Shown in pieces: positions 434 through 37,932 of a stretch of DNA of 64,000 bases. Numbering within the stretch: the first letter of the stretch is position 1; each line of letters starts with the position of its first letter. Made by a program: the position numbers and the translations under genes. The notes under the pieces were generated by a model. It worked only from the letters and a program-made list of their open reading frames with translations, made no database searches and had not been told where the DNA came from. The stretch is from NCBI RefSeq assembly GCF_020866905.1, contig NZ_JAIVCC010000005.1:484088-548087 (forward strand), given 5' to 3'. The DNA comes from Salinimicrobium sediminilitoris. Lineage in GTDB: Bacteria > Bacteroidota > Bacteroidia > Flavobacteriales > Flavobacteriaceae.

Positions 434-1674
434 AAATGGGTAAGGACATCGACAGCATTTATCGGGATCGCTTTAAAGGAGCTAAAGTCCCGCCACCGGA
501 AGATTCCTGGGAAAATATCCTGTCCCAATTGCCTCAAAAAAGGGAAAAAAGAAAGCTCTTTCCTCTGTGGTTCCAAATTTCGGGAGTGGCTGCTGCTTTG
601 GCCCTCATCTTTGCTGCGTACCTGCAAAGCCCTACCTTATTTGATAAAAAGGATGATGTGGTTGTGACGCCTGTTACAAAAGAATTGAATATGATTCCTT
701 TGGATGCTTCAGAAACTTTTAATGAGGTGATGAGAGAATCGGAAATAATTCTTCAGGTTTTGATATTGCAAAATTGGCGGGCACAACATCAGGAAAACGA
801 CTATCAATTTGCTTCAGCAAGGGAGGAAAATTCGGAAAAGATAAATAATTCAAATGGTGATTTTTCAAATATCAGGCATGGAGAAGATGCCGAAATTGCT
901 AATGATAAGGAGGAGCCGGTGGAGGAAAATTTGGTAGCAGAAACAAATTCCGCAGGGGAATTATCTCCGGCAGTTGCATTAGTTCCAAAAGATGATCCCG
1001 ATGCTGTTACTCTTAAAAATGAAAGATCCGCCGAAAAATTTAAATTGACCACCAGGATTGCGCCTGTATATTTCAGTAATATGGGGAATGGTAATGCTTT
1101 GAATAATAGTTTTTCGCCAAAAGAGGCTTCGGGGCAAGTTACTTTTTCTTATGGGGTAAATGTTGCTTATAAGGTTTCCGAAAAGATCAATATCAGGTCT
1201 GGTCTTAATAAGGTGGATCTTGAGTATAATACCCGCGAGGTCTCGTTCAATGATGTAGCCGCTACTAATACTTTTGCCTCAAAAATGGCAGAAACAACGA
1301 CTCTTTCCTCTCCTTCAAATGGAACCTTAAGCCAAAAAATGGGCTTTTTAGAGGTGCCCCTGGAGGTGGAATATGTTCTTATAAATGAAAAATTTGCATT
1401 TGGAATTATTGGAGGTGGCAGTATATTATTTCTCGAAGAAAATGAGCTTTTACTTGACTTTCCGGATAATAAGGCCAATCTTGGGGAGACAAATAACATG
1501 AACAACCTTAGCTACACTACAAATCTTGGGCTTAGTATGGGTTATAATTTATCAAAACAGCTACAGTTAAGTTTGGAACCGGTGGTTAAATTTCAAATGA
1601 ACACTTTTAGGTCTAGCGAAGGACAAACTCCTTATTTCTTCGGGTTATATTCGGGATTTAGCTATAAATTTTAA
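430..1674 (+). CDS. Membrane-anchored protein with C-terminal outer-membrane beta-barrel-like domain, probable partner of the ECF sigma factor
   Basis: This 414-aa protein overlaps the sigma gene by four bases. Its N-terminus (IYRDRFKGAKVPPPEDSW) is the short cytoplasmic type seen in Bacteroidota anti-sigma-like proteins. It is followed by one membrane segment at about residues 47-66, an acidic low-complexity linker (about 110-200), and a C-terminal region of alternating hydrophobic strands that ends in FGLYSGFSYKF, a PorT-like barrel ending. Tethering the sigma factor is inferred from position and topology. No classical zinc-binding anti-sigma motif is visible. ATG at 430 or 436 are both possible starts. 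Confidence 0.75.
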   Translation: MKMGKDIDSIYRDRFKGAKVPPPEDSWENILSQLPQKREKRKLFPLWFQISGVAAALALIFAAYLQSPTLFDKKDDVVVTPVTKELNMIPLDASETFNEVMRESEIILQVLILQNWRAQHQENDYQFASAREENSEKINNSNGDFSNIRHGEDAEIANDKEEPVEENLVAETNSAGELSPAVALVPKDDPDAVTLKNERSAEKFKLTTRIAPVYFSNMGNGNALNNSFSPKEASGQVTFSYGVNVAYKVSEKINIRSGLNKVDLEYNTREVSFNDVAATNTFASKMAETTTLSSPSNGTLSQKMGFLEVPLEVEYVLINEKFAFGIIGGGSILFLEENELLLDFPDNKANLGETNNMNNLSYTTNLGLSMGYNLSKQLQLSLEPVVKFQMNTFRSSEGQTPYFFGLYSGFSYKF

Positions 1675-1701
1675 TTTTTCTGTATTCCTTTAAAGCCAAA
1701 C

Positions 1702-1723
1702 CTCTCAAAAATGGCATTTTTAT
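1702..1723 (+). repeat. Dispersed short palindromic repeat, copy 1
   Basis: CTCTCAAAAATGGCATTTTT. The core AAAAATGGCATTTTT is a near-perfect palindrome. It belongs to a family with consensus AGCTTCWAAAAWGSCATTTT that recurs in intergenic DNA of this window. This copy lies about 130 bases upstream of prs. Confidence 0.5.
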
Positions 1724-1817
1724 CGGTCTTATTTCTGAAGCCTGATTCATAGAGGTCTTTCCTTTTTTATTTCTGAAGAAAGTATTTTAGCCGGGCGTTT
1801 CCCCTGAAATTAATTTC

Positions 1818-1825
1818 TAAATTTG
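1818..1825 (+). promoter_or_regulatory. Bacteroidota -7 promoter box for prs
   Basis: TAAATTTG matches the TAnnTTTG -7 consensus of Bacteroidota and is followed by GCAGGG. The prs ATG is 26 bases downstream. No strong -33 TTTG is visible at the expected distance. Confidence 0.55.
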
Positions 1826-1851
1826 CAGGGCAACAACACAAACTACACACA

Positions 1852-2793
1852 ATGCCTGAAGTTAACACCGCAGCGAAAATTTTTTCCTGTAATCAAAGCC
1901 GGGACCTGGCCGAGAAAATTGCTGAATCCTATGGTTCAAAGCTGGGAAATGTTATTACCTCCACCTATAGTGACGGGGAATTTCAACCTTCCTTCGAGGA
2001 ATCTGTTAGAGGATCGAGAGTTTTTATCATTGGCTCAACTCACCCGGGATCAGACCACCTCATGGAACTGCTTCTTATGCTCGATGCTGCCAAAAGAGCG
2101 TCTGCAAGACATATCACAGCCGTAATTCCTTATTATGGATGGGCAAGGCAGGACAGAAAAGATAAGCCACGTGTGCCAATCGCGGCGAAACTTATAGCTA
2201 AAATGCTGGAGACTGCAGGAGCTACAAGGATCATCACCATGGATCTCCATGCAGATCAAATTCAGGGATTTTTCGAAAAACCCGTAGATCATCTGTTTGC
2301 TTCAACTGTTTTCCTTCCGTATTTACGTAGCCTTGAGCTGGAAAATCTTACAATTGCTTCCCCCGATATGGGGGGATCTAAAAGAGCATATGCTTACTCT
2401 AAAACTATGGAAAGCGATGTTGTGATCTGTTACAAACAAAGGGCTAAGGCAAATGTGATTTCCCACATGGAATTGATTGGGAATGTTGAAGGCCGTAATG
2501 TGGTACTTGTTGATGATATGGTTGATACCGCAGGAACCCTCACCAAAGCTGCAGATGTGATGATGGAAAGAGGTGCGCTTAGTGTAAGGGCAATATGTAC
2601 TCATCCCGTACTTTCGGGAGAAGCTTATGAACGCATCGAGAATTCTAAACTTTTAGAACTAATCGTTACCGATTCTATTCCGTTGAAAAAGAAGAGTAAG
2701 AAAATCCGCGTGGTCACCTGTGCCGATCTTTTTGCCGATGTTATGAACAGGGTTCATAACAACAGGTCAATAAGTTCAAAATTCATCATGTAA
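1852..2793 (+). CDS. prs: Ribose-phosphate pyrophosphokinase
   Basis: PRPP synthetase makes 5-phosphoribosyl-1-diphosphate from ribose-5-phosphate and ATP for purine, pyrimidine, histidine, tryptophan and NAD synthesis in the cytosol. The 313-aa length is normal for class I enzymes. Visible family marks are the flexible-loop/ATP region YYGWARQDRK, the metal site DLHADQIQGFF and the PRPP-binding loop VVLVDDMVDTAGT. The start is the ATG at 1852, with MPEVNTAAKIFSC leading directly into the first strand. It has its own promoter box and is followed by rplY, an arrangement common in Flavobacteriia. Nothing unusual is seen. Confidence 0.97.
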   Translation: MPEVNTAAKIFSCNQSRDLAEKIAESYGSKLGNVITSTYSDGEFQPSFEESVRGSRVFIIGSTHPGSDHLMELLLMLDAAKRASARHITAVIPYYGWARQDRKDKPRVPIAAKLIAKMLETAGATRIITMDLHADQIQGFFEKPVDHLFASTVFLPYLRSLELENLTIASPDMGGSKRAYAYSKTMESDVVICYKQRAKANVISHMELIGNVEGRNVVLVDDMVDTAGTLTKAADVMMERGALSVRAICTHPVLSGEAYERIENSKLLELIVTDSIPLKKKSKKIRVVTCADLFADVMNRVHNNRSISSKFIM

Positions 2794-2873
2794 GCTGAAG
2801 TGAGAATTTAGAGGTTAGATTTTAGAAGTTATAAGTATCAGGTAGATAAAATTGTTGTCTGGATTGAATCTGA

Positions 2874-2895
2874 AGCTTCAAAAATGCCATTTTTA
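2874..2895 (+). repeat. Dispersed short palindromic repeat, copy 2
   Basis: AGCTTCAAAAATGCCATTTT with the same palindromic core as copy 1. It lies about 80 bases downstream of prs and about 80 bases upstream of rplY. Confidence 0.5.
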
Positions 2896-2947
2896 TTCTC
2901 TTTAAAATAATTAGGCTTCAGGCTTTTAATAGCTGAAAAAAAAGATT

Positions 2948-2955
2948 TACTTTTG
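2948..2955 (+). promoter_or_regulatory. Bacteroidota -7 promoter box for rplY
   Basis: TACTTTTG followed by CAG fits the TAnnTTTG consensus, 20 bases before the rplY ATG. This gives rplY a short leader of its own. Confidence 0.55.
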
Positions 2956-2974
2956 CAGCCTAAAATTTTTAACA

Positions 2975-3607
2975 ATGAAATCAATTACGATCAACGGATC
3001 TAAAAGAGAAAGCGTAGGCAAGAAAGCTACAAAAGCCTTACGTAATGCTGGACAGGTTCCTTGCGTATTATACGGGGGAGACGAGCCATTACATTTTGCA
3101 GCAGATGAGATTGCCTTTAAAAGCCTTGTATACACACCAGATGTGCATACAGTGGAAATTAAATTAAAAGGTGGTGAGAAATTTAACGCTGTACTACAGG
3201 ACATCCAGTTCCACCCTGTAACAGATGCAATTTTGCATATCGATTTCTACCAGATCTTTGAAGACAAAGAAATTTCTATGGAAATTCCGGTTCACACTAC
3301 TGGAGTTGCCCGTGGGGTGAAAAATGGTGGGGTATTGAGATTCAACCTGCGCCGAATGAGAGTGAAAGGTCTTCCAGGAAATCTTCCAGATTTTATTGAA
3401 GCAGATATCACGCCACTTAAGATTGGTAACAAACTTTATGTTACTGCTCTTAAAAGTGAAGAATTTAAGATCATGCACCCTGATAATACTGTTGTTTGCC
3501 AGGTTAGAACTTCTCGTAACGTTATCGCCGATACCGAAGATGAAGAGGAAGAAGTTGCTGCAGATGAAGTGCCTGCAACAGAAGTTGACGAAAACGAAAA
3601 CGCATAG
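2975..3607 (+). CDS. rplY: 50S ribosomal protein L25/general stress protein Ctc
   Basis: Binds 5S rRNA in the large ribosomal subunit. The 210-aa protein is the long (CTC/TL5) form: an N-terminal L25 domain (residues 1-95, with [20 protein letters not shown] and PCVLYGG), then the second TL5-type beta domain (about 96-185), and a strongly acidic C-terminal tail ([11 protein letters not shown]). ATG at 2975 directly precedes the conserved start of the fold. A rho-independent terminator follows 27 bases after the stop. The pair prs-rplY followed by pth is a recurrent order in this family of bacteria. Confidence 0.96.
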
Positions 3608-3633
3608 ATTTATAAAATCTTATTCAAAAGATA

Positions 3634-3667
3634 AAGCATCCCTTATTAGGGATGCTTTTTTTATTTT
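3634..3667 (+). terminator. Rho-independent terminator after rplY
   Basis: Stem AAGCATCCC (3634-3642) pairs with GGGATGCTT (3649-3657) across a six-base loop and is followed by a run of T with one A. It also decides the pth start, because the upstream ATG at 3652 falls inside this hairpin. Confidence 0.85.
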
Positions 3668-3684
3668 TACCAAAAAAGAAATCT

Positions 3685-4320
3685 ATGCTCTCGTTCTTTG
3701 GTAGGATTTGGACTAAAAAACCTAAAGAAGATTCTAAAGAAGAAATTCCCCCTATGAAAAAATTTCTCATTGTTGGGCTGGGAAATATTGGCCCAAAATA
3801 TCATAACACCCGTCACAATATTGGATTTAAAGTTCTTGACTTCCTGGCAGAAAAGGAAGGCCTAACCTTCGAATCTCAAAAACTTGGTGATGTAGCAACC
3901 TACAAATTTAAAGGCCGCAGCTTTATTCTGCTTAAACCCTCCACCTATATGAACCTTAGTGGAAAAGCAGTAAATTACTGGCTGCAAAAAGAAAAGGTGC
4001 CGCTGGAGCATTTGCTGGTAATTACAGATGACCTCAATCTCGGGTTTGGGACTATAAGAATTAAAACCAAAGGCAGCGACGGCGGGCATAACGGCTTGAA
4101 AGATATACAGGCGCAATTGGGAACGACAAATTATAATCGTTTTCGTTTTGGGATAAGCGATGAGTTTTCAAAGGGGAGGCAGGTAGATTACGTGCTGGGG
4201 GAATGGGATGAAGAGGAAGCAAAGAAACTGCCCGAAAGACTGGAGAAATCGGCCGAAGTTATCAGGTCCTTTGGTACAGCAGGCATGAACAACACAATGA
4301 ATACCTTTAACGGGAAATAG
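3685..4320 (+). CDS. pth: Peptidyl-tRNA hydrolase
   Basis: Cleaves peptidyl-tRNA released from stalled ribosomes and recycles the tRNA. The family core begins with KFLIVGLGNIGPKYHNTRHN (catalytic His in the TRHN motif), followed by STYMNLSG and the DDLNLGFG and KGSDGGHNGLKDI segments. I use the ATG at 3685 (MLSFFGRIWTKK), which gives a 23-residue basic leader before the core; related Flavobacteriia carry a similar leader. The ATG at 3754, exactly at the core, is the alternative. The ATG at 3652 is rejected because it is in the rplY terminator. ribF follows after eight bases. Confidence 0.95.
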   Translation: MLSFFGRIWTKKPKEDSKEEIPPMKKFLIVGLGNIGPKYHNTRHNIGFKVLDFLAEKEGLTFESQKLGDVATYKFKGRSFILLKPSTYMNLSGKAVNYWLQKEKVPLEHLLVITDDLNLGFGTIRIKTKGSDGGHNGLKDIQAQLGTTNYNRFRFGISDEFSKGRQVDYVLGEWDEEEAKKLPERLEKSAEVIRSFGTAGMNNTMNTFNGK

Positions 4321-27759: not shown

Positions 27760-29349
27760 GTGGAGGAATTCGCAGCACTTATAAGAGAACTTGACAGCAC
27801 CAACAAAACCACGGTGAAGGTGGCGGCATTGACACGTTATTTTCAGCGGGTGCCGAATAAGGATAAGGTGTGGGCAATTGCTATCCTCTCGCACCGCCGT
27901 CCGCCAAGACCGGTGAATACAACCTTGCTGCGTCAATTTGCAGCCGAACTCGCTAATATTCCGCTGTGGTTATTTGAAGAATCCTATCATATTGTAGGAG
28001 ATTTGGCTGAAACTATTGCATTGGTCATTCCGCCGGCAGAGGAATCCAGTGAAAAAAGCCTTACCCAATACCTTGAGGAGATCATCGACCTTAAATCTGC
28101 CACCGAAGCCGATAAAAAGGAATACCTGCACGAGAACTGGGCAGCATTGAATTATTACGAACGCTTTGTTTTTACAAAGCTAATTACCGGAAGTTTCAGA
28201 ATTGGGGTGAGTCAGAAGTTGATGACCCGCGCCCTTTCAAAAGCCGCCGATATAGATGAAGATGTACTTGCCTATAAATTAATGGGTAATTGGAATCCGC
28301 AAAAAATCTCTTTCCAAAAGCTCATTTTAGAAGAGAATGAAGAAGATTTTCTTTCAAAACCATATCCGTTTTACCTGGCGTATGCTATTGAAGGAGAACC
28401 TCAGGATCTGGGTGATCCCGCCGACTGGTCTGCCGAGCATAAATGGGACGGAATAAGATCTCAGGTGGTGATTCGGAACCGGGAGATCTATGTGTGGAGC
28501 CGGGGAGAGGAGCTCGTTACCGATAAATATCCTGAATTTTCCTCCTTTTTGGAGATCATCCCCGACGGAACGGTAATAGACGGTGAGATCCTTCCTTTTC
28601 CGGAAGGAGATATTGGAACATTCAACGACCTGCAAACCCGCATCGGCCGAAAAACCGTTTCAAAGGCGCTGCTGGAAAAGACTCCGGTAATATTAAAAGC
28701 TTACGACCTGTTGGAGTGGCAGGGAGAAGACATTCGTACAATGCCTTTTTTGGAAAGAAGAAAGATCCTGGAGAAGCTGCATTCCACGGCAGCAACAGAA
28801 GAAACTCCTTTTCATCTCTCCAAAACTATTTCCTTCAACAAATGGGAGGAAGCTACTGAAGAACGGGAAAGGGCGCGGGAGGTCAAAAGCGAAGGCCTGA
28901 TGCTCAAGCGGTGGGATTCGCCGTACCTCGTAGGAAGGAAAAAAGGCGATTGGTGGAAATGGAAGGTAGAGCCATTGACCGTTGACGCTGTCCTCACCTA
29001 CGCTATGCGTGGCCACGGCCGCCGCTCCAATCTTTTTACCGATTACACCTTTGCGCTCTGGCAGAATAACGAGCTGGTCACCTTCGCCAAAGCCTATTCA
29101 GGCCTTACAGATGCAGAATTCCGCCAGGTGGATGCCTGGATCAAGAAGAACACGGTCGAACGTTTTGGTCCTGTCCGCTCGGTCACACCTCAGCTGGTTT
29201 TCGAAATAGCCTTCGAAGGCATAGCCGAATCCAAAAGACATAAAAGCGGAGTCGCCACAAGATTTCCTAGAATTTTAAGGTGGAGGCAAGACAAAAAAAT
29301 TGAAGAAGCAAATACAATAGAGGAATTAAAGCAGTTGATCCCGAAATAA
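27760..29349 (+). CDS. ATP-dependent DNA ligase, ligase-associated repair operon
   Basis: A 529-aa LigB/LigC-type ligase that seals nicks with ATP, distinct from the essential NAD-dependent LigA. An N-terminal helical domain (about 1-200) precedes the adenylation motif AEHKWDGIRSQ, with nucleophilic Lys228; EGLMLKRWDSPYLVGRKKGD is motif IV/V and WWKWKVEP follows, then the OB domain to about 510. The start is GTG at 27760. Its stop is followed at once by the 201-base structured repeat that leads to the DUF559 gene. Confidence 0.93.
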   Translation: MEEFAALIRELDSTNKTTVKVAALTRYFQRVPNKDKVWAIAILSHRRPPRPVNTTLLRQFAAELANIPLWLFEESYHIVGDLAETIALVIPPAEESSEKSLTQYLEEIIDLKSATEADKKEYLHENWAALNYYERFVFTKLITGSFRIGVSQKLMTRALSKAADIDEDVLAYKLMGNWNPQKISFQKLILEENEEDFLSKPYPFYLAYAIEGEPQDLGDPADWSAEHKWDGIRSQVVIRNREIYVWSRGEELVTDKYPEFSSFLEIIPDGTVIDGEILPFPEGDIGTFNDLQTRIGRKTVSKALLEKTPVILKAYDLLEWQGEDIRTMPFLERRKILEKLHSTAATEETPFHLSKTISFNKWEEATEERERAREVKSEGLMLKRWDSPYLVGRKKGDWWKWKVEPLTVDAVLTYAMRGHGRRSNLFTDYTFALWQNNELVTFAKAYSGLTDAEFRQVDAWIKKNTVERFGPVRSVTPQLVFEIAFEGIAESKRHKSGVATRFPRILRWRQDKKIEEANTIEELKQLIPK

Positions 29350-29550
29350 ACCACCCCGTCTCCGCTACCGCGGATCCACCCCTCCTTAAAAAAAGGAGGG
29401 GAGCTTTTCGGAACAGCTTTGCTGTTCCCGTAAACAAATGTGGGTTTAAAAAATTTATAAAAGTGAAGTAAAATTATCAATAGTAGTACAAATAGCTCCT
29501 TCCCTTGCTAAGGGAAGGTGGATCCGCCGCAAGGCGGAGACGGAAGGGTC
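29350..29550 (+). repeat. DUF559-flanking structured repeat, unit 1 (complete)
   Basis: Begins ACCACCCCGTCTCCGCT at the ligase stop codon and ends GACGGAAGGGTC. It holds four hairpins: CCCCTCCTT (29379) with AAGGAGGGG (29393); GGAACAGC (29410) with GCTGTTCC (29421); CCTTCCCTT (29498) with AAGGGAAGG (29510); and TCCGCC (29523) with GGCGGA (29533). Unit 2 at 29946-30144 is a direct copy. The DUF559 gene begins 33 bases after it. Confidence 0.85.
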
Positions 29551-29583
29551 TGACGGCTGCTTCTAAATTATTACACAGCCAAA

Positions 29584-29985
29584 ATGAAAAAGAAAATCCA
29601 CAACCGTAAACCCCTCGAACCATACCGCAAGAAGCTCCGCCACCACGGCACAACTGCCGAGGCCTACCTGTGGATGCATCTGCAAAAAAAGAAGCTGGAG
29701 GGAAGGAAATTCAGGAGGCAGCATAGTATTCTAAATTTCATTGTAGATTTCTATTGTGCAGAAGAAAGGCTGGTGATCGAACTCGATGGGCAGTATCATA
29801 TGAATCCTACTAACCAAGAAAAAGACAGTGTGAGAACAAAGAGGCTGGAGGAATTAAATATGAGAGTGCTAAGATTTGAGAATAAGACAGTATTTGATAA
29901 TTTGGAGTGGGTGTTGGAGGAGATAAAGAAAAATTTCAGGAACGGACCACCCCGTCTCCGCTCCCGCGGATCCACCCCTCCTTGA
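29584..29985 (+). CDS. DUF559 endonuclease-domain protein, embedded in repeats
   Basis: A 133-aa protein of the DUF559 family, related to the very-short-patch-repair and restriction-like endonuclease fold. FRRQHSILNFIVDFYCAEER followed by LVIELDGQYH gives Asp55, Glu66 and Asp68 in a PD-(D/E)xK-like arrangement. The fold ends near EEIKKNF; the last 14 residues (RNGPPRLRSRGSTPP region) are encoded by repeat unit 2, and the TGA at 29983 lies in the loop of its first hairpin. Inserted between ligase and helicase of a conserved operon, it looks like mobile cargo. Biochemical activity of the family is not well defined. Confidence 0.88.
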   Translation: MKKKIHNRKPLEPYRKKLRHHGTTAEAYLWMHLQKKKLEGRKFRRQHSILNFIVDFYCAEERLVIELDGQYHMNPTNQEKDSVRTKRLEELNMRVLRFENKTVFDNLEWVLEEIKKNFRNGPPRLRSRGSTPP

Positions 29986-30144
29986 AATAAGGAGGGGAGC
30001 TTTAGGGAACAGCTTTGCTGTTCTATGGACAGATGTGGGTTTATCGAAAAAGTGAAAAAGAAACTAAAAATATAAATAGTACCACAAACAGCTCCTTCCC
30101 TTGCTAAGGGAAGGTGGCATTCCGAAGGAATGACGGAAGAGTTC
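29946..30144 (+). repeat. DUF559-flanking structured repeat, unit 2 (complete)
   Basis: Direct copy of unit 1: starts ACCACCCCGTCTCCGCT, hairpins CCCCTCCTT (29975)/AAGGAGGGG (29989), GAACAGC/GCTGTTC (30007-30023), CCTTCCCTT (30094)/AAGGGAAGG (30106) and CATTCC (30118)/GGAATG (30127). The last stem differs in sequence from units 1 and 3 but still pairs. The 5' end codes for the tail of the DUF559 protein. Confidence 0.85.
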
Positions 30145-30190
30145 CATGGGAACACGAATTTAAATTTTTAACTAAAGAAATATTCATAGG

Positions 30191-30260
30191 AGTACCAAAC
30201 AAAAGCTCCTTCCCTTGCCAAGGGAAGGTGGCTCCGCCGAAGGCGGAGACGGAAGGGTCC
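30191..30260 (+). repeat. DUF559-flanking structured repeat, unit 3 (second half only)
   Basis: Only the downstream half is present: CCTTCCCTT (30208)/AAGGGAAGG (30220), CTCCGCC (30232)/GGCGGAG (30242) and GACGGAAGGGTC. It ends 16 bases before the helicase start. Confidence 0.8.
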
Positions 30261-30276
30261 AACCGGAGACGAAAAA

Positions 30277-32802
30277 ATGAACAAACCCCAACTCATAAAA
30301 CTCGCCAACGACTGGTTCAAATCCCGGTCCTGGAAGTCCTTTGCTTTTCAAAAAGAGTCCTGGAAGGCTTTTTTGGATGGTAAGCACGGACTACTCAATG
30401 CCCCCACCGGGAGCGGGAAAACCTACGCTCTCTGGATCCCGATCGTGCTGGATTACATTAGACAAAATCCGGATTATAAAACTAAACACAAACCCGGACT
30501 CAAAGCTATCTGGATCACGCCGCTGCGGGCGCTCTCGGTGGAGATCGAGCAGGCGGCGAACCGGTTTGCTCAGGATATTGGCAGCGGACTTACGGTAGGT
30601 ATCCGCACCGGCGATACTTCCCAAAAATTACGTGCTGCCCAGAAGAAACAAATGCCCGACCTCCTTATCACCACACCCGAAAGTCTGCAACTGCTACTTG
30701 CTTCCAAGAGTTATGCAAAGACTTTTAAGGATCTCAATGCTATTGTTATTGATGAGTGGCATGAGCTTTTAGGAACCAAGCGCGGAGTCCAGATCGAACT
30801 CGCAATTTCCAGGCTCAAAACTGTGGCTCCAAAAATGAAGATCTGGGGGATCTCTGCTACCATAGGAAACCTTCAGGAGGCACGTGAGGTTTTGCTGGGC
30901 CCGAAATCTGAAGCTTTTGAAAATTCAGTACTTATTCGGGCAGATATTAAGAAGAAGATCACTGTAAAATCTATTATTCCGGAGAAGATGGAAACTTTCC
31001 CCTGGCGGGGGCATCTGGGATTACACCTGATCGATGAGGTGGTGCCAATCATCCGGAAGTCCAGAACAACACTGCTCTTTACAAATACAAGGTCACAATG
31101 TGAGATCTGGTTTCAGCGGATACTTCAGAAGTATCCAGAATTTGCGGGAGAATTGGCTATGCATCACGGGAGTATCAACAAAGAGACACGACTATGGGTG
31201 GAGCAGGCGATACGGGATGAGCAATTAAAAGCGGTGGTAGCAACTTCCAGCCTCGACCTCGGAGTGGATTTCGCCCCGGTGGAGACCATTATTCAGATCG
31301 GCGGACCAAAAGGTGTTGCCCGATTTCTCCAGCGGGCGGGAAGAAGCGGCCACCAGCCGGGGAAGGAAAGCGTCATCTACTTTTTACCCACTCATGCCAT
31401 GGAACTTATAGAAGCTTCAGCCTTACAAAAGGCAGTGAAGCATACGGTGGTGGAGGATCGTATTCCATACCTGAATTCGTTCGATGTTCTGGTTCAGTAT
31501 TTAACAACTCTTGCAGTTTCAGACGGATTCTTTCCGAAGGAGATCTGGCCCGAGGTCAAATCCACCTTCTGCTATCAGGCACTTTCCGAAGAGCAGTGGG
31601 AGTGGCTGCTGAATTTCATCACTCAGGGAAGTCAGACGCTGCAGGCTTATGACGAATACAAAAAAGTAGAGATTGAGGAGGATGGGCTATTTAAAGTGAA
31701 TAACAGAGCAATCGCCATGCGGCACCGGTTGCAGATTGGCACAATAGTAAGTGACGCGGTGCTGGCGGTGAAATATTTGGGCGGAGGATATATTGGTACC
31801 ATCGAGGAATGGTTTATCTCAAAGCTGAATCCCGGGGATGTTTTCACCTTCGCCGGAAAGAACCTGGAGCTTTACCAGATCAAGAACATGCAGGTGATCG
31901 TGAAAAAATCGAAGGTAAAAAATTCCCGCTTCCCCAGCTGGGCGGGGGGACGCATGAGCTTTTCGGCACAAATGAGTGAGCTGCTGCGGGAGGAGATGTT
32001 TGTAGCTTCAGAAATTGAAGAAGCCGAATCGCCGCAGAATGTCACCCCAAGTACCTCGGCTGCGCTCGGTATAGGCTCCGCCGAGAAGTCAATTGAACTT
32101 CAGGCCATGACCAACATCTTCAAAAGACAAAAAAAGGAATCCATTATCCCAAAAAAAGATGAATTCCTCATTGAAACGTTCAAAACCCGCGAAGGATATC
32201 ACGCTATTTTTTATCCTTTTGAAGGAAGATTTGTTCATGAAGCCATGGCCAGTCTGCTCGCCTACAGGATTAGTCTGCTGTCGCCCATCACTTTTTCACT
32301 GGCCTTTAATGACTACGGATTTGAACTGCTTTCCGATCAGGAGATCGATATGCAACAGGTCTTCGATAATGATCTTTTTTCTCCGGAACATCTCATGGAT
32401 GATTTGCAAACCAGCCTGAATGCCACTGAGATGGCAAGAAGAAAATTCCGTGATATTGCCGTGATCGCCGGAATGGTCTTCACCGGCTTTCCGAACAAGA
32501 TGATCAAAACCAAGCATCTTCAGTCCAATTCACAGCTGCTTTTCAGTGTTTTCAGAGACTATGAACCGGACAATTTATTGTTTCAGCAGGCGTTTAGAGA
32601 AACGTTCGAACATCAGTTGGAGGAAGGTCGTTTGAGATTGGCCATGGAGCGAATTTCGGAACAAAAATTGGTATGGAAACAATGCCAGAAACCCACGCCT
32701 TTCGCCTTTCCGATCATCACCGACAGGATGCGCGAGAAATTATCTTCAGAAAAACTGGAGGACAGAATTAAAAAGATGATGGCACAATGGGAAGACCTGT
32801 AG
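30277..32802 (+). CDS. Ligase-associated DNA damage response DEXH-box helicase (Lhr-like)
   Basis: An 841-aa superfamily 2 helicase of the short Lhr type. N-terminal RecA domain: LLNAPTGSGKTYALW (Walker A, about 38-52), ITTPESLQLLL, VIDEWHEL (DEWH) and GISATIGN. Second RecA domain: LFTNTRSQCEIWFQRIL, ATSSLDLGVDF and FLQRAGRSGHQPG. The rest is the winged-helix and Lhr-core region. In this operon it is thought to remodel DNA for the exonuclease and ligase. ATG at 30277 lies directly after repeat unit 3, so its native leader has probably been replaced. It leads into the phosphoesterase gene. Confidence 0.93.
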   Translation: MNKPQLIKLANDWFKSRSWKSFAFQKESWKAFLDGKHGLLNAPTGSGKTYALWIPIVLDYIRQNPDYKTKHKPGLKAIWITPLRALSVEIEQAANRFAQDIGSGLTVGIRTGDTSQKLRAAQKKQMPDLLITTPESLQLLLASKSYAKTFKDLNAIVIDEWHELLGTKRGVQIELAISRLKTVAPKMKIWGISATIGNLQEAREVLLGPKSEAFENSVLIRADIKKKITVKSIIPEKMETFPWRGHLGLHLIDEVVPIIRKSRTTLLFTNTRSQCEIWFQRILQKYPEFAGELAMHHGSINKETRLWVEQAIRDEQLKAVVATSSLDLGVDFAPVETIIQIGGPKGVARFLQRAGRSGHQPGKESVIYFLPTHAMELIEASALQKAVKHTVVEDRIPYLNSFDVLVQYLTTLAVSDGFFPKEIWPEVKSTFCYQALSEEQWEWLLNFITQGSQTLQAYDEYKKVEIEEDGLFKVNNRAIAMRHRLQIGTIVSDAVLAVKYLGGGYIGTIEEWFISKLNPGDVFTFAGKNLELYQIKNMQVIVKKSKVKNSRFPSWAGGRMSFSAQMSELLREEMFVASEIEEAESPQNVTPSTSAALGIGSAEKSIELQAMTNIFKRQKKESIIPKKDEFLIETFKTREGYHAIFYPFEGRFVHEAMASLLAYRISLLSPITFSLAFNDYGFELLSDQEIDMQQVFDNDLFSPEHLMDDLQTSLNATEMARRKFRDIAVIAGMVFTGFPNKMIKTKHLQSNSQLLFSVFRDYEPDNLLFQQAFRETFEHQLEEGRLRLAMERISEQKLVWKQCQKPTPFAFPIITDRMREKLSSEKLEDRIKKMMAQWEDL

Positions 32803-33736: not shown

Positions 33737-33793
33737 ATTGCCTCCGCCTTTAGGCGAGGATCAGAGAAGAGGTAAGCAAAACGGCTTTAGCCC
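33737..33793. repeat. Partial palindrome cluster joined to the transposase 3' end
   Basis: GAATTGCCTCCGCCT, a slightly decayed CCTCCGCCTTTAGGCGAGG (33741-33759) and GGCTTTAGCCC (33783-33793). The transposase stop codon (33787-33789, read on the minus strand) is inside the last palindrome. Confidence 0.75.
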
Positions 33794-34236
33794 AAATGTT
33801 CATCCTGGAATTTCTTAAAATTGTATTTTTTTATGAATTGCTCATATTCTTCCTGAAATGATTTCTTTCTGTGATGCTCTTCCTGATTTTTAATATAGTC
33901 TCTTACCCTATCAAGATTAGATTCTGAAACAGAGACAGCAAAATAATCATCCTGCCATTCAAATTTATGAGCGGTTAACTTGTTCTTGTTGATCCAATAA
34001 GAAGATTCACCTTTAATTAAATTTATCACCTTTTGAATAGTTTGATCTACACCTAAGGAAACTAAGCAGTGACAGTGATCTGCGTGTCCATTGACAAAGT
34101 CTACAAATATTCCTTTTGATCTGGCATTTTCTTCTATATGCTGCCACACTTTTCTTCGAAGTTCAGGAGAATTGAGGAAGGGAATCCTGTTTTTGGTGCT
34201 CCAAACAAAATGAAGGTAAACTTTAATGTAAGGCAT
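33787..34236 (-). mobile_element. REP-associated tyrosine transposase (IS200-like, RAYT)
   Basis: A 149-aa Y1-type HUH transposase. VNGHADHCHCLVSLG holds the HUH pair (His54, His56), and RVRDYIKNQEEHHRKK holds the catalytic tyrosine (Tyr114). YLHFVWSTKNRIPFL is the typical beginning. The basic tail ends in DEHLG, where the last codons are the palindrome GGGCTAAAGCC. RAYTs act on REP palindromes and are usually single-copy domesticated genes. The matching palindrome clusters at 33510-33676 and 34295-34459 are its presumed cognate sites. Start ATG at 34236. Confidence 0.93.
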
Positions 34237-34545: not shown

Positions 34546-37500
34546 TTGAGTAAATCTTCTATTGCCCAAAGCTTTGCACAGTCGGCTCAACAGCTTGAAC
34601 TGGGGAAAGCCCTTGCCCTGCCGCGAAATAATGTTCAGTTAAAAGGGCTGGTTGGTTCGGCACTTTCTTTTGTCATTGCCAATGCTTTTGAGGAAGCTGA
34701 GAAACCTTTTCTGCTGATCTTTAATGACAAGGAAGAAGCTGCCTACTATCTAAATGACCTCGAGCAACTTTTAGGTGACAAAAATGTGCTTTTTTACCCC
34801 GGAAGCTATCGCAGGCCATACCAACTGGAAGAAACCGATAATGCTAATGTGCTGCTCAGGGCAGAAGTACTCAACCGAATCAACTCCCGTAAAAAGCCGG
34901 CGCTAATAATTACTTATCCGGATGCCATTTTTGAGAAGGTAGTAACGCGGAAGGAACTTGAAAAAAACACACTGAAGATCAAGGTTGGCGACGAATTGTC
35001 TATTGACTTTGTGAACGAGGTGATGTTCGAGTACAAGTTCAAGAGAGTGGATTTTGTGACCGAACCAGGAGAATTTTCTGTTCGTGGAGGAATTCTGGAT
35101 GTTTTCTCCTTCAGCAATGATGAACCGTACAGGATTGAATTTTTCGGTGATGAGGTGGAGAGCATCAGAACTTTTGATGTGGAGACGCAGCTGTCGACAG
35201 ATCAGGTGAAGAAGATCACAGTGATCCCGAACGTAGAGCACAAGAAGCTTCAGGAAGTAAGGGAGAGTTTTTTGAAATATATTTCAGAAAAAACGGTGAT
35301 CTTCAGCAAAGATACCGAGCTGCTTTTCTCAAGAATAGACAAACTCTTCGGAAAAGCCGAAGAAGCTTTTAAAGATCTTTCCGAAGACATAAAGCACAAC
35401 GAGCCGGAAGAATTGTTCTGTAATTCGGCACTTTTGAAGGAGCAAATGCAGGATTATTCGCTGGTGACAATGAACTCAAACCAGACCCTGAAACAAGTTC
35501 AGGGTGACGGGGATTTTCAGCAAATACTTTTCAACACCAAACCTCAACCTTCTTTTAATAAACAATTCGACCTGTTGATCCAGGATCTGCATGATCATTC
35601 GGAAGGGGGATATTCCAATTATATTTTCTGCGTCAGTGAGCAGCAGGCCAAGCGTTTTCACGACATATTTGATGATGTAGATAAAGAGGTAAAGTATAAA
35701 ACCGTGGTTCTTTCCATGTATCAGGGGTTTATTGATGAGGCTTCAAAAATGATTTGCTATACAGATCACCAGATCTTTGAACGCTACCATAAATTCCACC
35801 TCAAGAACGGCTATGCGAAGAAGCAGGCGATCACGCTGAAGGAATTGACCAATCTTGAAGTCGGCGATTATGTTACGCATATTGACCACGGAATTGGAAA
35901 GTTCGGCGGACTTCAAAAAATTGATGTTGAGGGCAAAAAGCAGGAAGCGATCAAGCTCATCTATGGCGAACGCGACATCCTGTACTTGAGCATTCACTCG
36001 CTGCACAAGATCTCAAAATATAACGGCAAAGACGGGAAGCCGCCCAAGATCTATAAACTGGGCAGCAACGCCTGGAAAAACCTGAAACAAAAGACCAAGG
36101 CGCGGGTAAAACATATCGCCTTCAACCTTATCGAATTATACGCCAAGCGCCGACTGCAGAAAGGCTTTGCCTATGGCCCGGATTCTTATCTACAGCATGA
36201 ACTCGAGGCCTCCTTTCTTTACGAAGATACGCCTGATCAAAGTACCGCCACAGCAGATGTTAAAGCCGACATGGAGAACGAACGCCCGATGGACCGCCTG
36301 GTGTGCGGGGATGTCGGCTTCGGAAAGACTGAAGTTGCGATAAGAGCCGCGTTTAAAGCTGTGGATAACGGAAAACAGGTAGCAGTGCTGGTGCCGACGA
36401 CAATTCTGGCTTTTCAGCATTACAAGACTTTTACCGAACGCTTGAAAGATTTTCCAGTAACTGTCGATTACCTGAACCGTTTTAGGACCGCAAAGGAACG
36501 AAAAACCACGCTGGAGGAGCTGGAGAATGGAAAGGTGGATATAGTCATTGGAACCCATCAGCTGGTGAACAAAGCAGTTAAATTCAAAGATCTCGGACTA
36601 CTTGTTGTGGACGAGGAGCAGAAATTTGGTGTGGCTGTAAAAGACAAGCTGAAGACCATTAAGGAAAATGTAGATACACTTACGTTGACCGCGACGCCAA
36701 TTCCGCGTACCCTGCAATTCAGTTTGATGGCTGCCAGGGATCTATCTACAATAACAACTGCGCCTCCAAACAGGTATCCTATTGAGTCGCATGTGATAAG
36801 ATTTTCAGAAGAAACCATTCGCGATGCCGTTTCCTATGAAATTCAGCGGGGCGGGCAGGTTTTCTTCATTCACAACCGGGTGGAGAACATCAAGGAAGTC
36901 GCGGGAATGATCCAACGACTGGTACCCGATGCGAAGATTGGGATCGGTCATGGACAAATGGAAGGAAAAAAGCTGGAGACTTTAATGCTGAAGTTCATGA
37001 ACGGCGAATTCGACGTGTTGGTTTCCACGACTATCGTGGAAAGCGGACTCGACGTTCCAAATGCCAACACCATCTTTATCAATAACGCCAATAACTTCGG
37101 ACTCTCAGATTTGCACCAGATGCGGGGACGCGTGGGTCGAAGCAATAAAAAAGCATTTTGCTATTTCATCACTCCGCCATACTCTGCCATGACCGATGAT
37201 GCGAGGAAGCGAATCACAGCCCTGGAGCAGTTCAGCGAATTGGGCAGCGGATTCAATATTGCGATGAAAGATCTGGAAATTCGCGGCGCAGGTGATCTTT
37301 TAGGAGGGGAACAAAGCGGATTCATCAATGAAATAGGCTTTGATACTTACCAGAAGATCCTGAATGAAGCCATAGAGGAACTGAAGGAAAATGAATTCAG
37401 GGATCTTTATGAGGGGCAGGAGACAGAGGATAAGGAATATGTGAAGGATACGCAGATCGATACCGACTTTGAGCTGTTGTTCCCCGATGACTACATTAAC

Positions 37501-37932
37501 AACATTTCCGAAAGGCTGAATCTTTACACTCAGCTCAACAACCTGAAAACGGAAGAAGAGCTTCAGAAATTTGAAGCCGAACTTGTCGATCGTTTCGGAG
37601 AACTACCTTCAGAGGCCGAAGATCTTCTAAACAGCGTCCGCATCAAATGGATCGCTTCTAAGATTGGACTGGAGAAGATCGTGATGAAGCAGGGAAAACT
37701 CATTGGTTATTTCATTGCCGATCAGCAGTCGCGTTTCTATCAGAGCAAAGCCTTTACAAAAGTGCTGCAGTATGTACAAACGCATCCGCAGTCTTGCACC
37801 ATGAAAGAAAAGAAAACCCGCAGCGGGTTAAGGTTGCTGCTTACGTTTGAAAAAGTGACTACTGTAGATAGAGCGTTAAAGGTACTGCAACCTCTGGATG
37901 TGAAGGTGCCGGTGGAGATAGAGGAAAAATAA
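34546..37932 (+). CDS. mfd: Transcription-repair coupling factor
   Basis: Removes stalled RNA polymerase at DNA lesions and recruits UvrA. The 1128-aa protein shows the UvrB-like N-terminal region (about 1-300), the CarD-like polymerase-binding domain (LEVGDYVTHIDHGIGKFGGL, near 440), the translocase (CGDVGFGKTEVAIRAAFKA, VVDEEQKFGV, TLTATPIPRTLQ, DLHQMRGRVGRS) and the C-terminal TRCF domain. The start is TTG at 34546 behind a promoter box. Residues about 312-322 (NQTLKQVQGDG) are encoded by a palindromic repeat inserted in frame in the linker after the UvrB-like part. Confidence 0.96.
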   Translation: MSKSSIAQSFAQSAQQLELGKALALPRNNVQLKGLVGSALSFVIANAFEEAEKPFLLIFNDKEEAAYYLNDLEQLLGDKNVLFYPGSYRRPYQLEETDNANVLLRAEVLNRINSRKKPALIITYPDAIFEKVVTRKELEKNTLKIKVGDELSIDFVNEVMFEYKFKRVDFVTEPGEFSVRGGILDVFSFSNDEPYRIEFFGDEVESIRTFDVETQLSTDQVKKITVIPNVEHKKLQEVRESFLKYISEKTVIFSKDTELLFSRIDKLFGKAEEAFKDLSEDIKHNEPEELFCNSALLKEQMQDYSLVTMNSNQTLKQVQGDGDFQQILFNTKPQPSFNKQFDLLIQDLHDHSEGGYSNYIFCVSEQQAKRFHDIFDDVDKEVKYKTVVLSMYQGFIDEASKMICYTDHQIFERYHKFHLKNGYAKKQAITLKELTNLEVGDYVTHIDHGIGKFGGLQKIDVEGKKQEAIKLIYGERDILYLSIHSLHKISKYNGKDGKPPKIYKLGSNAWKNLKQKTKARVKHIAFNLIELYAKRRLQKGFAYGPDSYLQHELEASFLYEDTPDQSTATADVKADMENERPMDRLVCGDVGFGKTEVAIRAAFKAVDNGKQVAVLVPTTILAFQHYKTFTERLKDFPVTVDYLNRFRTAKERKTTLEELENGKVDIVIGTHQLVNKAVKFKDLGLLVVDEEQKFGVAVKDKLKTIKENVDTLTLTATPIPRTLQFSLMAARDLSTITTAPPNRYPIESHVIRFSEETIRDAVSYEIQRGGQVFFIHNRVENIKEVAGMIQRLVPDAKIGIGHGQMEGKKLETLMLKFMNGEFDVLVSTTIVESGLDVPNANTIFINNANNFGLSDLHQMRGRVGRSNKKAFCYFITPPYSAMTDDARKRITALEQFSELGSGFNIAMKDLEIRGAGDLLGGEQSGFINEIGFDTYQKILNEAIEELKENEFRDLYEGQETEDKEYVKDTQIDTDFELLFPDDYINNISERLNLYTQLNNLKTEEELQKFEAELVDRFGELPSEAEDLLNSVRIKWIASKIGLEKIVMKQGKLIGYFIADQQSRFYQSKAFTKVLQYVQTHPQSCTMKEKKTRSGLRLLLTFEKVTTVDRALKVLQPLDVKVPVEIEEK
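35485..35505 (+). repeat. In-frame palindromic repeat inside mfd
   Basis: ACCCTGAA (35485-35492) pairs with TTCAGGGT (35498-35505) across five bases, continuing into GACGGGGA. It codes for the TLKQVQGDG stretch. This repeat word is, from memory, a common dispersed sequence in bacterial genomes and often found translated. Confidence 0.7.

Follow-up and report, generated by a model that had tools for sequence, protein, structure and literature searches.

DUF559 nuclease genes and their flanking palindromes as a probable family of homing-like selfish elements

In the 64,000-nucleotide stretch of the Salinimicrobium sediminilitoris genome analyzed here (contig NZ_JAIVCC010000005.1, positions 484,088 to 548,087; below, the window), a small DUF559 nuclease gene flanked by structured repeats stands between the ligase and helicase genes of an operon. 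Comparing it with DUF559 genes elsewhere, we consider it probable that such genes encode the nucleases of a family of homing-like selfish elements that travel with cognate GC-rich palindromes. What sequence comparison supports is that gene and repeat are linked, that the package entered an empty site, that DUF559 has inserted in essential genes with the frame kept open, that one repeat stays behind when the gene is lost, that the putative catalytic residues are retained, and that repeat and nuclease lineages match. We infer, in addition, that the nuclease may cut the palindrome, that repair may then copy the gene, that a recombination step may remove it, and that the nuclease may drive the spread of palindromes that carry no gene.

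RESULTS

We assembled 210 DUF559 loci from the genus, a sample of the family, 12 of 38 plasmid records, and a genome collection; the last contributed 80 loci, which are the best 80 of 588 confirmed candidates found with a closer alignment (A2) and not a random sample. Of these loci, 196 were distinct, 173 remained at <80% identity (37 of the 210 being dropped as identical copies or for an identity of 80% or more), and 167 were usable once 6 of the 173 had been removed for flanks of <200 nucleotides (nt). A repeat was counted as shared when the left and right 300-base flanks aligned with a local score of at least 16. By this measure, 111 of 167 DUF559 loci have a repeat common to both sides, compared to 2 of 107 distant windows lying at least 600 bases off in the same loci and none of 30 acetyltransferase genes. 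Both flanks had strong hairpins at 50/167 DUF559 loci, 0/107 distant windows, and 0/30 control genes. The share of loci with a shared repeat was 55/88 in the family sample, 34/52 in other Bacteroidota (where we placed L285, a genome-collection locus with no stated phylum), and 22/27 in other phyla; it was 85/110 for short reading frames and 26/57 for long ones. Judged by these flank comparisons, the link between DUF559 and repeats is general and extends beyond the window locus. The expectation of a preliminary description of this DNA, that DUF559 genes elsewhere would have linked repeats as well, holds for most of them. Outside the Bacteroidota, some records have operons interrupted by DUF559, for example, sufB-DUF559-sufC and paaD-DUF559-paaZ.

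The sequence of the flanks also follows that of the nuclease. Among 89 loci with matching flanks, taken outside the named host sites and with pairs that share neighboring genes removed, flanks were similar in 34.5% of pairs at a DUF559 identity of at least 50%, in 4.3% at 35 to 50%, and in 0.5% below 35%. The rank correlation between flank and DUF559 similarity was 0.24, and 0 of 999 permutations reached as high a value.

The window operon, in a family profile scan, is the ligase-associated damage-response operon, consisting of an exonuclease (TIGR04122), a ligase (TIGR04120), a helicase (TIGR04121), and PdeM (TIGR04123). Between the stop codon of the ATP-dependent DNA ligase gene (27760 to 29349; this and all features of the locus are on the plus strand) and the start of the DEXH helicase gene (30277 to 32802) come, in this order, repeat unit 1 (29350 to 29550), which begins right at the end of the ligase stop codon, the DUF559 gene (29584 to 29985; 133 amino acids), repeat unit 2 (29946 to 30144), which overlaps the 3′ end of that gene, and a half unit that copies the right half of the repeat (30191 to 30260; 94% identity to query positions 139 to 201). 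Units 1 and 2 are 94% identical across the first 78 nt and 86% identical across 172 nt. The product of the gene, which has a Vsr-like fold, matches PF04480 at an E value of 1.5e-32 and 112.1 bits (curated cut-off, 20.6), and its Pfam matches at 1e-3 are DUF559 and MTES_1575 only. The preliminary description had seen the two direct copies and the half copy around the gene, and they are present as described. It had also seen that the nuclease frame reads into unit 2, which it does, although with 12 whole codons plus the stop inside the unit rather than the 14 codons given there; the repeats are structured, as it said, but we find five stem-loops in a unit rather than four.

A unit runs from a CGTC-tagged stem-loop through CCCCTCC/GGAGGGG, a middle hairpin, and CCTTCCC/GGGAAGG to a last stem-loop followed by ACGG or GACGG. 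In unit 1, the tagged stem-loop (TCCGC/GCGGA, with a TCCA tail) lies at 29357 to 29378, the CCCCTCCTT/AAGGAGGGG stem-loop that gives the CCCCTCC..GGAGGGG pattern at 29379 to 29401, the middle stem-loop (GGAACAGC/GCTGTTCC, with unrelated stems in its place in some relatives) at 29410 to 29428, the CCTTCCCTT/AAGGGAAGG stem-loop at 29498 to 29518, and the final stem-loop (TCCGCC/GGCGGA, followed by GACG, the inverted CGTC tag) at 29523 to 29542. The final stem-loop of unit 2 is CATTCC/GGAATG (30118 to 30132), and the final stem of the half copy is CTCCGCC/GGCGGAG (30232 to 30248). Folded as single-stranded DNA, units 1 and 2 reached z values of −7.9 and −5.7 relative to shuffled sequences, with 0 of 200 shuffles folding as well in each case.

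Hairpin stems are swapped between copies as blocks, with pairing nearly always kept. Over 15 copies in the genus, the final stem takes three pairing sequences (TCCGCC/GGCGGA, CATTCC/GGAATG, or TCCGGC/GCCGGA) and the middle hairpin at least five unrelated stem sequences; the copy in G002 is the exception: its last stem pairs poorly, and a middle hairpin was not found. The final-stem letters given in the preliminary description for the three window copies are as stated, and all three pair. Its reading of compensatory change in that stem was right and extends further, to the 15 genus copies and to the middle hairpin. RNAalifold on the genus alignment is less striking, with a two-sided change that keeps pairing in 5 of 33 consensus pairs and a covariation term of −0.28.

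Across the 149 genomes of the family sample, 22 of the 55 that have DUF559 also have the CCCCTCC..GGAGGGG palindrome, as do 7 of the 94 others (Fisher p 2.6e-6), where a genome counts as DUF559 positive at an E value of <1e-9 and weaker matches (E above 1e-9) count as without. Three or more copies were found in 11 genomes with DUF559 and in 0 without, and a reversed control pattern was found in 5 of 149 family genomes. Some of these copies flank DUF559 itself; when only palindromes more than 2 kb from any DUF559 were counted, by hand and with the genus of the window excluded, the numbers were 18/53 and 7/94 (p 7e-5). Both p values are too sharp, because the genomes are related. The repeats are thus linked to DUF559, as the preliminary description had supposed, rather than spread without regard to it. 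Of the 18 copies in the S. sediminilitoris genome, 16 lie elsewhere than at the ligase locus.

The tags are less general. The CGTC–stem-loop–CCA arrangement is found in the window repeats and in some close relatives, and a CGTC tag beside a stem of at least 5 occurs at 8/167 DUF559 loci and 1/102 distant windows; we considered it as a general mark of DUF559 repeats and rejected it, given that it is present at those 8 loci only. A GTAG tag beside a stem was found at 4/167 loci near DUF559, 0/102 far from it, and 1/30 control genes; the tag in the window reads CGTC.

The preliminary description had taken the package of gene and repeats for an insertion between ligase and helicase, and empty junctions do exist. 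The ligase fragment matched in 44 of 149 family genomes at an E value of 1e-3; 30 junctions were fetched, of which 27 were resolved and the 3 unresolved were set aside. Seventeen of the 27 are empty, with 101 to 154 nt from the ligase stop to the helicase P-loop and no strong palindrome. Five (G000, G001, G154, G084, and G124) carry DUF559 in 745 to 1038 nt, and a profile search finds the same five. Since 17 of 27 junctions are empty and 5 have the gene, comparison of junctions indicates that the package is an insertion and is old in the genus; three other genera also have it at this junction. When presence and absence are placed on the ligase tree, five changes of state are needed, of which at least two are forced by strong branches. 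Among junctions lacking DUF559, those of L367 (G049) and L369 (G022) measure 1255 and 908 nt, and that of L372 (G137) contains another palindrome (CAAGGTTTTCAAAACCTTG) followed by a similar inverted stretch.

The ligase is found in 10 of 12 genomes of the genus, including that of the window, and in 9 of these 10 the junction holds DUF559 with a repeat on each side. The layout is therefore nearly constant in the genus, if not in the family, and we rejected a recent insertion at this operon; the comparison indicates that the insertion here is largely inherited. The tenth genome, G005, has one repeat at the junction and no gene. Because it nests among DUF559 carriers on the ligase tree, the gene was most likely lost. 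Two of the nine junction copies of DUF559 in the genus have an internal TAG.

DUF559 also lies in an open frame inside host genes: in leuS (two sites), metH, recG, aroC, hrpA, and ribE and, in Mucilaginibacter L256, in a homologue of the window's own helicase. It follows the front part of the valS and hsdM frames, follows hisD, and lies ahead of hemD, hisF, and a PALP-type dehydratase gene. One open reading frame (ORF) of each kind, 14 in total, was confirmed by Pfam; gene names beyond the Pfam domains are our own reading. For fusions at the 5′ end, an upstream gene that has no stop is another possibility, a doubt from which the insertions in leuS, metH, recG, aroC, hrpA, ribE, and the helicase are free, because host domains lie on both sides. 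By eye, the joining peptides (PPSGARG, PLPVGEGPGVRA, and similar) look like translated palindromes, and no splicing domain was found in the 14 scanned host ORFs at an E value of 1e-6.

Among 147 genomes with a leuS match, 13 have DUF559 in leuS, with inserts of about 145 to 220 amino acids, and most of the relatives read have an empty site with a linker of about 24 amino acids. On a LeuRS tree of 48 rows, the insert changes state seven times, and strong branches force at least six of these changes; with five distant rows removed (43 remaining), there are six, of which at least four are forced. The profile confirmed 16 of 16 inserts on this tree. In metH, DUF559 was found in 3 of 117 genomes of the family sample and in 3 of 10 of the genus. 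The metH linker of G010 has one in-frame palindrome and no gene, which may reflect a loss or a target; in G003 and G005, metH has no ORF of DUF559 length, and the linker was missed by the pattern used. As separate observations, the leuS linker contains other in-frame repeat-like peptides in L120 and L208, from other genera (SELDSES/LKQVQHD; SAPLNH), and different repeats may share the linker that takes DUF559 as a landing site. L251, a leuS fragment from the Sphingobacteriales, has two DUF559 domains, one at each leuS site.

The putatively catalytic residues E26, D55, E66, D68, and H72 are all kept in 187 of 196 DUF559 rows. The leuS inserts of L158 and L159 have lost some of them, with the frame still open; such decay would be expected of an insert that has outlived its activity, and perhaps these are domesticated LeuRS domains. 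An AlphaFold model of the window protein (predicted local distance difference test [pLDDT], 83) best matches 3HRL, a DUF559 structure (E 5.6e-8), followed by the homing endonuclease I-Bth0305I (3R3P; Foldseek E 4.2e-5, profile E 4.4e-6) and, more weakly, Vsr (1VSR; Foldseek E 9e-3). A role as a defense gene was rejected: the PADLOC matches were weak only (E 3e-4 and 2e-3, the latter to a homing endonuclease model).

Two further candidates did not hold. The E. coli DUF559 gene was considered as a two-sided example, and its left-right score is 9, with a GC-rich palindrome on one side. Near-identical DUF559 copies 1.4 kb apart in L175 were considered as proof of transposition; they belong to a tandem array of related genes and resemble a segmental duplication. 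The two L175 copies (1000 to 4300) are 96.7% identical over 605 bp, and intact paralogues there may offer an internal empty site. Elsewhere, L013 has a gene-free 264-base element (3401 to 3664) with 15-bp perfect inverted ends (ACCACCCCGTCCGCT), which resembles a miniature inverted-repeat transposable element. An in-frame peptide in the mfd ORF of the window (34546 to 37932), TLKQVQGD, has the appearance of another palindromic repeat (CCCTGAAACAAGTTCAGGGTGACG). Seven copies of that repeat occur in L011 (6129 to 7568); it resembles the CGTC type of repetitive extragenic palindromic (REP) sequence and was not seen directly beside DUF559.

DISCUSSION

If DUF559 genes are homing-like elements, as we think probable, one can picture a simple cycle. 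The nuclease would nick or cut the palindrome, or a site next to it, in DNA without the gene, and repair of the break would draw on a copy that has the gene, the palindromes providing the homology in common, with the result that the gene would come to lie between two palindrome units. Insertions would be tolerated between genes and, if in frame, within protein linkers; there, translation of the palindromes would give Gly/Pro/Ser-rich peptides. Recombination between two direct units would remove the gene and leave one palindrome. A broader proposal, which we offer as tentative and would not yet bet on, is that DUF559 proteins define a class of mobile element across phyla, in which a homing nuclease of the Vsr fold uses its own palindromes as target, as repair homology, and as in-frame protein linker and thereby spreads both itself and gene-free palindromes, among them some CGTC REPs with no mobilizing enzyme known before.

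Several observations weigh against the homing-like interpretation. Clear left-right repeats are lacking at 56 of 167 loci, among them 31 of the 57 with long ORFs, and the loci were sampled non-randomly. No target-site duplication or exact ends were identified in a look by eye, mainly at metH. Five of the 27 resolved ligase junctions are longer (206 to 1255 nt) and have no DUF559. Nearly all pairs compared show high synonymous divergence in insert and host alike; the single clear case to the contrary is a recG pair from Tenacibaculum, with a synonymous divergence (pS) of 0.23 for the insert versus 0.57 for the host, which suggests that the insert was transferred separately from the host gene. 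On the DUF559 tree, many of whose forks are poorly resolved, copies that share a site group strongly together, with 13 changes needed for 8 site labels versus 61.7 in shuffles. Because of this clustering, changes of site look infrequent, and site lineages look persistent, rather as with inteins. Counted against all 196 rows, recG, metH, and hemD need one change each, the ligase (with the three other genera included) and the second leuS site two each, hisF three, and leuS six. We rejected the idea that each site is one DUF559 clade, which holds only among the named sites and fails against all 196 rows. Finally, in the portion of PMC12907096 available to us, VsrA of Caulobacter (CCNA_02930), which carries a DUF559 domain, is proposed to do very-short-patch mismatch repair and is needed for the SOS response seen without the methylase ScmA.

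Could another enzyme move the palindromes? A tyrosine transposase of the IS200/RAYT type (RAYT, REP-associated tyrosine transposase) might do so, with DUF559 as cargo caught between two copies. The window does have an IS200/IS605-type transposase ORF (33790 to 34236, minus strand; NF033573, 62.5 bits against a cut-off of 55), which lies about 340 bases beyond pdeM; the hairpins of the window repeats, with their CGTC tag and CCA tail, resemble published CGTC REPs; and many palindromes occur without DUF559. Against this, repeat sequence tracks the DUF559 lineage where no neighbors are shared, palindrome presence tracks DUF559 presence, and the putative catalytic residues are kept even inside host genes. 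We regard this explanation as unlikely.

DUF559 might instead home into preexisting palindromes that were spread by other means, in which case the palindrome would be the target only and the two-sided repeats a copied target. Gene-free palindromes are indeed common in the S. sediminilitoris genome, and single ones sit at the ligase site of G005 and the metH site of G010. Yet no strong palindrome is present at any of the 17 ligase junctions that are empty, and the G005 repeat, nested among gene carriers, is best read as a remnant; the lineage match, moreover, would require that one palindrome family be chosen per nuclease. The chance that this account is correct seems small to us.

That DUF559 is a host-serving Vsr-like repair nuclease, which works with the ligase, helicase, exonuclease, and PdeM and has repeats beside it incidentally, draws on the VsrA proposal and on the retention of the gene in a damage-response operon by 9 of 10 ligase-bearing genomes of the genus, but is very unlikely given relatives in the leuS, metH, hisF, hemD, hisD, and aroC frames with no tie to repair, the absence of DUF559 from 22 of 27 resolved family junctions, and the internal TAG in 2 of 9 junction copies, although a repair role may still apply to some members.

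The homing-like selfish element that we favor has partial counterparts among known systems. The EDxHD homing endonuclease I-Bth0305I is the nearest solved fold after the DUF559 structure itself, and DUF559, like a homing nuclease, occupies fixed sites in conserved genes with a patchy distribution (leuS, 13/147; ligase junction, 5/27) and with decayed copies (L158 and L159). The difference is that no intron or intein was seen around DUF559; what is found is palindromes and a nuclease in the host reading frame. Inteins likewise lie in frame in conserved genes, with a nuclease domain that is kept and in some copies decayed. DUF559 resembles them in all these respects and differs in that a splicing domain was not found in its scanned host ORFs.

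The preliminary description had compared the system with RAYT/REP. The linkage to repeats that it proposed stands, whereas the likeness to RAYT is loose. In RAYT/REP systems, according to the portion of PMC3733652 available to us, one enzyme gene is flanked by short palindromes that are also found alone, between and sometimes inside genes; the palindromes on either side of the window's DUF559 gene likewise have solitary copies in the genome. The enzymes differ, though, RAYT being an HUH tyrosine transposase and DUF559 a nuclease of the Vsr/PD-(D/E)XK type with a Vsr/EDxHD-like fold. The GTAG tag is no feature of DUF559 repeats, and essential genes repeatedly contain DUF559 itself, in frame. 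The same portion of that source states that CGTC REPs have no transposase of their own and that their stems are 8 to 9 bp with loops of 4 to 5. The window repeats share with these and with the Rickettsia palindromic element (RPE; PMC3733652) the CGTC tag and CCA tail around a stem-loop, but the window stems are 5 to 7 bp. Since the tag is found at so few DUF559 loci, DUF559 is at most a candidate partner for some CGTC REPs.

DUF559 shares its fold with Vsr, and the domain occurs in Caulobacter VsrA (PMC12907096); unlike Vsr, it is flanked by palindromes and placed in many unrelated genes. Our search for a methylase covered six window ORFs and found none among them. We did not find a link between DUF559 and palindromes in print, in a literature on DUF559 that was covered in part, which is no proof of absence.

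If the homing-like reading is correct, DUF559, a domain of unknown function that occurs across many bacterial phyla, would be the active component of a widespread selfish element able to insert itself in essential proteins with no splicing device. Palindromic repeats whose mobilizer is unknown would gain a candidate enzyme, the recurrent insertions in the products of leuS, metH, and recG would be explained, and a nuclease-palindrome pair would be open to testing. The same reading would carry a warning, that DUF559 genes found in repair operons need not be repair genes.
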